This document shows positions 8,886 through 10,004 of a stretch of 64,000 nucleotides of DNA, one piece after another. Source of the stretch: a candidate division WOR-1 bacterium RIFOXYB2_FULL_42_35 (GTDB lineage Bacteria > Margulisbacteria > WOR-1 > O2-12-FULL-45-9); contig MEUC01000011.1 of NCBI GenBank assembly GCA_001771545.1, positions 1 to 64,000 on the forward strand. Reading direction: 5' to 3'. The notes beneath the pieces were generated by a model. That model did not search any database. It was not told the origin of the DNA and was given only the letters and a program-made list of their open reading frames with translations. The position numbers were made by a program, and so were the translations under genes. Positions within the stretch are counted from its first letter, which is position 1; the number at the start of each line of letters is the position of its first letter.

Positions 8886-8959
8886 TAGGTCTAAACATGC
8901 TGGTAGACAAAAAAAGTTAAAATTGCTAAAATAACTTTAGACCGATATAGTTAATGCAT

Positions 8960-9031
8960 TCCCCGATAGCTCAATGGTAGAGCACTTGACTGTTAATCAA
9001 GTTGTTGCTGGTTCGAGTCCAGCTCGGGGAG
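8960..9031 (+). tRNA. tRNA-Asn (GTT)
   Basis: A complete cloverleaf is visible: acceptor TCCCCGA 8960-8966 pairs with TCGGGGA 9024-9030; anticodon stem CTTGA/TCAAG encloses the loop with GTT at 8992-8994; the T-loop is GTTCGAGTC. The 3' CCA is not encoded. A broken copy lies about 530 bp downstream. Confidence 0.95.
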
Positions 9032-9050
9032 CATAACTTTTACTGCGCAA

Positions 9051-9416
9051 ATGTTAAATTTAGTAACCAACAATTTTGATGGCGATTATGTCAAAAACAT
9101 TTTATGTCCAGGAATTCTCTGCACTTTTGGCCTCTTTATATTCCTTGACCAGTTTCTTCCTCGTTCCTTAAATAATTTCGCATTAGAACAAACAACTTTG
9201 TTTTCTTTCGCCTTTATTGTGACCTCAATAATCATTGGTCAACTCAATGCGATTATTAGCGTGCTTATTTCCCATTCCTTATATGCTTTTTTACAAATAA
9301 TTTTTTTTCAGAGGGAAAAACTCTCAAATCTTAGACAGACAAGCAGCTGGCATGATATGCATTATATTATTATTTATTGGAAGCTACTCCTACGCTGTTC
9401 ACTCTTCACTTGCTGA
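9051..9416 (+). pseudogene. hydrophobic protein, probably a truncated membrane protein gene
   Basis: This frame codes 121 residues with two clear hydrophobic stretches (about residues 15-35 and 47-80). Its first ~90 residues read like a real membrane protein, then the composition changes (REKLSNLRQTSSW onward), as if the end were shifted or recombined. There is no Shine-Dalgarno; it begins 19 nt after tRNA-Asn and lies between the tRNA and its broken copy. I do not recognise a family. Bases 9417-9491, between it and the tRNA remnant, show nothing else. Confidence 0.35.
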
Positions 9417-9491
9417 AACAAAAACATAATAGAATTAATGCATTTAAGAGATTATAAGTTCTCCCAGGAATAATTATTTATAAATAATTAT

Positions 9492-9651
9492 TGACGAGTC
9501 AGCTTCGGAGAGCACTTGACTGTTAATCAAGGTGTTGCTGGTTCTCCCGACGCTCATTCTTCTATGATAACTGTGGAACCGTCGGGATCCCGATGATTAC
9601 ATTATCATCATATTTATAATGTCCATCGGGAGAGTCCAGCTCGAGGAGCTT
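9492..9651 (+). pseudogene. broken tRNA-Asn copy interrupted in the T-loop
   Basis: Bases 9509-9544 repeat the tRNA-Asn sequence from the D-stem end through the anticodon stem-loop to GGTTC with one inserted G, and 9632-9648 continue with GAGTCCAGCTCGAGGAG, the rest of the T arm and the 3' acceptor strand. The two parts are split exactly in the T-loop by 87 bp (9545-9631). The 5' acceptor and D-arm are degenerate, so no functional tRNA is expected. The T-loop is the usual core of integrase attachment sites. Bases 9652-9842 hold only a TATAGT-like box near 9763. Confidence 0.75.
9545..9631. repeat. twin-hairpin insertion element
   Basis: The insertion consists of two back-to-back hairpins of 43 and 44 nt. 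The first is closed by TCCCGACG (9545-9552) and CGTCGGGA (9580-9587). The second is closed by TCCCGATG (9588-9595) and CATCGGGA (9624-9631) and has an inner stem ACATTAT/ATAATGT (9599-9605/9616-9622). The outer ends TCCCGA and TCGGGA are inverted, as in small palindromic mobile repeats. No coding capacity. Confidence 0.7.
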
Positions 9652-9842
9652 TTTATTTGCAGAAAACGTGGACGAGAACGGGAAAACAGGGGGAGTTCGC
9701 TAAATTTGCTCTCACTACATCTAATCTGTAACCAGGATTACATACTTTTTTCCTAATGCACTATATAGTTTATGCTGATGATAGTAATCAGCCATATCCT
9801 GAGACAAAAGGAATGCTGCTCTATAAGGGAGGGGTGAAAATC

Positions 9843-10004
9843 ATGGGTAACAAAGAAACCATCGGACAGCGTATCGATAAAGTTGTGAGCAAAGTGTCGG
9901 AAAATGTTGAAAAGGCAAAAAGCAAGATCGCTACAGCGAAAGAGGACGCGACTGACATAGCACACGATATATCAAATAGCGTAAAGAAGGCAGTCAAACA
10001 TTAA
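9843..10004 (+). CDS. small charged amphipathic helical protein
   Basis: A 53-residue protein of heptad-like, lysine- and glutamate-rich sequence (KVVSKVSENVEKAKSKIATA) with no membrane helix or cysteine. It should be a single amphipathic helix or coiled coil and resembles in style YtxH/LEA-like stress miniproteins, though family membership cannot be shown. GGGAGGGG at about 9828-9835 places the start at ATG 9843; the longer frame from 9756 lacks a site. It stands alone, followed by 174 bases with no feature, then another miniprotein. Confidence 0.65.
   Translation: MGNKETIGQRIDKVVSKVSENVEKAKSKIATAKEDATDIAHDISNSVKKAVKH

Follow-up and report, generated by a model that had tools for sequence, protein, structure and literature searches.

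In the stretch of DNA analysed here (the window; 64,000 nucleotides of contig MEUC01000011.1 from a candidate division WOR-1 bacterium), an intact tRNA-Asn gene is followed by a second copy whose T-loop is split by a pair of hairpins. The locus raises the question of how a tRNA gene came to stand beside a broken copy of itself, and of what the hairpins are. Integrases use tRNA genes as landing sites, and the first-pass annotation had proposed either that a lost island had left an att-like duplication, later hit by a small palindromic element, or that tRNA parts had been built into a structured RNA. The source genome was a 1.79-Mb assembly of 51 contigs and was 93% complete.

The intact gene, tRNA-Asn(GTT), lies at 8960–9032 on the forward strand, as do all features of the locus described here; it was called by ARAGORN and matched Rfam RF00005 at 74.6 bits. 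A spacer (9033–9495) separates it from the tRNA-Asn remnant, the 5′ part of which (9496–9544) ends in GGTTC. Within this part, 36 nt (9509–9544) were 97% identical to tRNA-Asn positions 20–55, covering the end of the D-arm, the anticodon arm, the 5′ strand of the T-stem and TTC. The 3′ part (9632–9649; 18 nt, 94% identity) runs from G57 to the 3′ end. Exactly 87 bp (9545–9631) stand between the two parts, placed in the T-loop between C56 and G57 (TTC^GAG, with ^ marking the insertion point). This insert is made of two abutting hairpins of 43 and 44 nt, each with an 8-bp stem: hairpin 1 (9545–9587; stem TCCCGACG/CGTCGGGA) and hairpin 2 (9588–9631; stem TCCCGATG/CATCGGGA), which is an inverted version of hairpin 1. 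Its fold had an energy of −31.2 kcal/mol (z = −4.26), and none of 200 shuffled sequences was as stable. The coordinates and the description given in the first-pass annotation therefore held when examined by ARAGORN, Rfam, alignment and folding.

The remnant has neither the 5′ acceptor strand nor most of the D-arm, and ARAGORN called no tRNA from it after deletion of the insert in silico. Based on this truncation and the missing call, the copy in the window is a dead 3′ remnant. The spacer holds a hydrophobic ORF (9051–9416, 121 aa) that matched no Pfam or NCBIfam family, and for that reason it was rejected as lost cargo. A profile search and a reading-frame check of the spacer for the GIY-YIG nuclease domain found none. 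A 16-nt stretch at 9429–9444 repeats, with 88% identity, the upstream flank of the intact gene (8945–8960), which suggests that the duplication may once have included the 5′ flank. Just 3′ of the locus, a small ORF (9756–10004) has a C-terminal part rich in lysine. The Rfam scan of the window at gathering score returned three tRNAs, no other family and no intron ribozyme. Taken alone, the motif TCCCGAYG showed no more than a slight excess in the window (5 occurrences, 1.7 expected), and the argument depends on complete elements found at other places.

Such elements were found in number. A BLAST search of the organism's own genome returned 16 stretches matching the split copy, and a pattern search of its forward strand returned 12 hairpins, compared with none for the reversed control. 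The strict two-hairpin pattern was present in 12 of the 74 genomes of the phylum (Margulisiibacteriota), and the reversed pattern in none of the 74. A covariance model built from 34 twins without their flanks matched at least 22 of the 74 genomes at E ≤ 0.01, and among the matches listed the copies lay mostly in two families of the organism's own order. These genomes were drafts, one per species and none from the organism's own genus, and the counts take no account of shared descent. In genome_contigs, the strict pattern gave 28 loci, made up of 18 from Margulisiibacteriota/WOR-1/Saganbacteria, nine from Omnitrophota and one from Sphingomonadaceae. The last (L043) has no tRNA in its flank and looks like a chance match. 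A phage origin of the twin was rejected, as a distant blastn search of 50,697 phage records gave no match and the strict pattern gave no locus in viral_contigs. Searches of the open-licence PMC literature turned up no paper describing such hairpins within tRNA copies, nor any on tRNA-linked GIY-YIG genes in Margulisiibacteriota or Omnitrophota.

In the alignment of the 34 copies, hairpin 2 is again the inverted form of hairpin 1, with a lopsided internal loop close to the stem. The stems were paired in 99.4% of cells compared with 88.8% after shuffling, and two-sided stem changes numbered 47 compared with 11.5 in the shuffles; the letters vary while the pairs within each hairpin are kept. All 34 units start with TCCCG and end with CGGGA, an invariance that is partly a product of the search patterns, which required most of these letters.

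To locate the insertion sites, the 45-nt flanks of each twin were joined and compared with 161 tRNA and tmRNA genes from the fetched DNA, using a threshold of 30 bits. The comparison took in 74 of the 78 places listed for the model; the other four were without fetched DNA. The joined flanks matched a tRNA or tmRNA across the junction at 54 of the 74 places and at none of 257 random control places. By arm, 35 of the 54 were in the T-loop (TTC^RA, between C56 and R57), 14 in the D-arm and five in the anticodon arm. However, 34 of the 74 places had been used to train the model, and the pattern that had retrieved most of these began with TTC. Among the 40 places outside the training set, 21 matched a tRNA (five in the T-loop, 11 in the D-arm and five in the anticodon arm). 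Hence, the link to tRNA copies stands, and the dominance of the T-loop is partly due to selection. The insertion points recur as GGTTC^RA, TTAG/CCAG^CTTGG, GTAG^CTCA and CTGT^AAATCAG, those in the D-arm being AG^CT-like. A tRNA-like flank was also recognized by eye at eight of the nine Omnitrophota loci, the exception being L047.

Deletion of a single insert yielded a tRNA by ARAGORN at L013 (Lys), L027 (Gln) and L035 (Pro), and deletion of two inserts did so at L048 (Val), L042 (Met) and L032 (Pro). A tRNA-Arg was obtained from L180, a weaker case as the stretch also contains an intact tRNA-Arg, and no ARAGORN tRNA was obtained from L023, L073 or L187. No target duplication was visible in the restored genes, the empty sites being those made in silico by deletion of the insert. 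Insertion of the twin into tRNA arms is thus precise and without target duplication. The further searches for twin hairpins and for the same duplication in relatives that the first-pass annotation had proposed returned many copies of the former, in the own genome and in relatives, and an intact tRNA with a remnant at many different tRNAs. The hit by a small palindromic element that it had envisaged is upheld, many of the related twins sitting at the same point of the T-loop. The order in which it had placed the events, duplication first and hairpin afterwards, is not evident from the loci, as remnants and hairpins were mostly found together.

In three genomes (L004/L102 on contig C26 of the own genome, L056 and L061), the arrangement is seen at tmRNA: downstream of the gene lies a repeat of its 3′ end, and a twin interrupts that repeat. 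At L025 (genome G052), a unit of tRNA-Lys 3′ remnant plus twin occurs as a tandem repeat, as if two insertions had taken place. CCA was present only in the split copy for the own tmRNA, L034, L031 and L044, and the opposite was seen at L061; about seven of 46 genes of the own genome have CCA (all by eye). An origin of the split copies by reverse transcription of a CCA-bearing tRNA was dropped on this mixed evidence. A role of the twins in interrupting the homology of the remnant with the spare was set aside, since the tract-length test was confounded by some of the 60-nt flanks including the intact gene.

The junction had no tRNA match at 20 of the 74 places, including all eight of genome G048 and those on contigs C2, C7, C22 and C49 of the own genome. 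The flanks of such twins (L191–L198 in G048; L178 and L179 in G050; L189; L015 and L016 on own contigs C2 and C7) often read RTG/twin/AAATTT, and judging from these recurring letters they may represent a second type of target. The twins of G048 adjoin another repeated palindrome that is rich in AAATTTC.

At 48 of the 54 tRNA-type places, the fetched stretch also contained an intact gene for the tRNA or tmRNA in question. Where a 3′ remnant has its split in the T-loop, the intact copy usually lies upstream, often by 13–70 nt. For splits in the D-arm or anticodon arm, it lies downstream in 16 of 19 cases, the exceptions being G053:C59, G059:C2:517346 and G049:C56:34379. At three loci, the intact tRNA is contained within the loop of hairpin 2 (Lys(CTT) on own contig C16, Val(GAC) at L048 and Met(CAT) at L042), in each case in a twin that splits the same kind of tRNA. 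The acceptor stems of these nested tRNAs are extended by 6–8 bp of inverted flank.

In relatives, the cargo, where one has been retained, is a GIY-YIG gene. Small ORFs beside several twins matched the GIY-YIG family PF01541, the three ORFs tested having E-values between 9e-15 and 5e-20. The twin-linked proteins are single-domain, mostly of about 80–130 aa, and their nearest solved sequences are the UPF0213 structures 1zg2 and 1ywl. The linkage was measured with 51 GIY-YIG genes and 78 twins from 20 genomes, among the matches listed. Two or three of the 51 were long proteins, one of them probably UvrC. Nine of the 51 genes lay less than 200 bp from a twin, compared with 0.09 expected if the two were independent. 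In eight of the nine, the nearest twin was upstream of the gene at a distance of 20–48 bp. The centre of the twin was 55–91 nt 5′ of the start of the GIY-YIG domain at eight loci, to which L175 can be added with a degenerate centre. The tRNAs concerned include tRNA-Asp (L104), tRNA-Pro (L112, L172, L174 and L175), tRNA-Tyr (L173) and tRNA-Ser (L164). Among the tRNA-type places with fetched DNA, 10 of 54 had a GIY-YIG gene within 1 kb, and most twins had none.

In both phyla, the order was 5′ tRNA remnant with twin, GIY-YIG gene, intact tRNA and 3′ remnant with twin. The full plan can be read at L231 of the Omnitrophota, where a 5′ remnant of tRNA-Glu with its twin is followed by the GIY-YIG gene, a complete tRNA-Glu and a 3′ remnant whose T-loop holds a twin-like double hairpin. 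At L126, the twin runs only to the first arm of its second hairpin; the GIY-YIG gene follows, and then a 3′ piece of a tRNA. At L044, the anticodon loop seems to house the cassette and the D- and T-loops the twins, an arrangement at odds with a twin that just plugs one cut site.

Related arrangements with other hairpins were also observed. At L210 (own contig C47), the order is 5′ remnant, GIY-YIG gene, intact tRNA-Gln(TTG) and 3′ remnant, and the D-loop of the 5′ remnant is split by hairpins other than the twin. At L207 (genome G061, contig C41), a perfect CCCCGATTGGAAATCGGGG hairpin, or the inverse of it, stands in place of the anticodon arm in both the 5′ and 3′ remnants of a tRNA-Pro. These remnants lie beside a GIY-YIG gene and form a twin-free variant of the pattern.

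Based on these data, the twin was postulated to belong to a family of mobile palindromes tied to GIY-YIG elements of the homing type, which break tRNA genes and carry a spare, a reading to which we give roughly even chances. The scattered copies and their recurrent insertion points suggest that the twins are mobile. The position of the nuclease genes would be explained most economically by a route in which a GIY-YIG nuclease would cut a tRNA gene, and repair would copy in a cassette from an allele carrying the GIY-YIG gene together with a complete tRNA. The complete copy within the cassette would keep the cell alive, and the remnants of the original gene would stay on both sides with twins in their arms. 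The nuclease might later be lost, either by decay or when the repeated pieces of tRNA recombine. Elements stripped of their left part would then form the commonest class, consisting of an intact tRNA, a spacer and a twin-split 3′ remnant, as is found in the window. As the window contains no GIY-YIG frame, its own history is drawn by analogy: the locus may once have held a nuclease and would now be a nuclease-free scar.

A more specific version of this proposal is a natural cleave-and-rescue gene drive on tRNAs, in which the nuclease would break an essential tRNA gene, the element would supply the spare, complete and at times with a swapped T-stem (at three loci within the loop of its own hairpin), and the twins would serve as its movable ends. 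This version we consider doubtful. When the T-stem of the split copy was compared with that of the nearest intact copy, about eight loci differed at two to six positions with both stems paired, as would be expected of a spare that had been replaced or recoded. At least 12 loci showed no difference from the complete copy and do not fit this expectation. Since these complete copies match the T-stem of the remnant, the spares do not seem to be recoded as a rule and should also be cut. This speaks against the homing-type proposal as a whole, as do the absence of a GIY-YIG gene from the window locus and from the vicinity of most twins, the layout of L044 and the 20 places without a tRNA match.

The alternative that survives best treats the twin as a non-autonomous element in its own right, moved by some other enzyme, preferring hairpin-forming targets such as tRNA arms and persisting only in dispensable tRNA copies, which may themselves stem from GIY-YIG elements or from other duplications. 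It would explain why some twins, among them those of G048, lie outside tRNAs, and why most twins have no GIY-YIG gene nearby. It also fits the GIY-YIG genes beside twin-free tRNAs: in 12 of the 30 fetched loci (L131 and L133 with tRNA-Asn), a tRNA was present within 1.5 kb of the gene and no twin was seen. The own tRNA-Gln and the tRNA-Pro of L207, with a GIY-YIG gene and remnants bearing other hairpins, point the same way. However, the linkage between twin and GIY-YIG gene is far above chance with order and spacing fixed, and random later insertion leaves the spare tRNA inside the twin at three loci unexplained. On balance, this alternative is possible but rather unlikely.

In the classic att layout, a 3′ remnant lies downstream of the intact gene and reaches to the 3′ end of the tRNA. 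The window has this layout, with 480 bp and a broken gene between the copies, and could be read as the scar of a tyrosine-integrase island in which the intact tRNA is attL, the remnant attR and the hairpin a later arrival. Against this, the same layout is found at many tRNAs with spacers mostly of 13–70 nt, and in some complexes 5′ and 3′ remnants both flank a complete tRNA. In addition, the retained cargo identified by the GIY-YIG profile search is the nuclease gene and not an integrase. The att-like duplication of the first-pass annotation was close as to layout, and its lost island would give way to a GIY-YIG cassette; an integrase scar is very improbable.

Slightly less probable still is that the twin is of the REP/REPIN type, two inverted REPs moved by a RAYT or another Y1 transposase. 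Each unit does contain two inverted imperfect hairpins, and the own genome carries one Y1 gene. That gene is truncated and IS200-like, and Y1_Tnp was found in nine of 13 twin-bearing genomes and not in G044, G055, G059 or G061 (G059 being a five-contig assembly), so Y1/RAYT was rejected as the general mover. Specificity for tRNA arms is not a REP feature that we know of, and no GTAG (or CGTC) tag was seen at the end of the unit. The twins share with REP, BIME and REPIN sequences the form of short imperfect palindromes in inverted pairs that are dispersed and non-coding (PMC3733652); they differ in having no GTAG tag and no constant Y1 partner and in sitting in tRNA arms. The truncated IS200-type Y1 gene of the own genome (L017, contig C23) has as its neighbours a pair of small duplicated genes, nearly identical to each other and preceded by nearly identical upstream regions.

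In a last reading, the split copy would act as an RNA in its own right or be a tRNA with an intron, the twin being removed from the transcript or acting in it. In its favour are the covarying stems, the canonical tRNAs restored by deletion at several loci and the split T-stems that retain at least four of five pairs at 33 of 35 T-loop sites. The reading is scarcely credible, as most remnants are truncated at the 5′ or 3′ side, 48 of the 54 places have an intact counterpart close by, the window holds no Rfam family other than tRNA, and covariation could also arise from palindrome correction or recognition by a mobility enzyme. The structured RNA of the first-pass annotation finds no support, given the truncated remnants and the intact gene next door.

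The proposed link between palindromes, GIY-YIG genes and tRNA breakage shares features with several known systems. The double-hairpin elements of mitochondrial genomes, likened here by description, are similar in their twin-hairpin form and inferred mobility and differ in having mitochondrial hosts. To our knowledge, targeting of tRNA arms is not known for them. Nucleases of the SegB type are phage-borne and longer proteins, unlike the twin-linked GIY-YIG proteins, whose genes lie in bacterial chromosomes. The T-even phage enzyme SegB is a free-standing GIY-YIG homing endonuclease that cuts within tRNA genes with the motif RAWTSGAAC (PMC13096335). By our reading, the reverse complement of this motif, GTTCSAWTY, resembles a T-loop and may correspond to one. 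The passages on SegB place its GIY-YIG gene beside tRNA genes and describe how repeats of tRNA and nuclease arise, and these same passages contain no twin hairpins or split tRNA remnants (PMC13096335). In CPR bacteria, insertion sequences with homing endonucleases are described in rRNA genes (PMC11270868). The likeness lies in homing endonucleases residing in essential RNA genes of uncultured bacteria; the difference is that those insertions are in rRNA genes, whereas the twins are in tRNA copies accompanied by a spare (PMC11270868).

The twin family accounts for the many broken copies of tRNA and tmRNA genes seen in Margulisiibacteriota and Omnitrophota, and the elements may explain turnover of the tRNA gene set in these lineages. 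If hairpins do enter tRNA arms in the way proposed, this would be a new way for selfish DNA to exploit essential genes. The twin loci offer natural material for testing cleave-and-rescue drives, and, should the gene drive reading prove true, tRNA genes in two candidate phyla would have been repeatedly broken and replaced.
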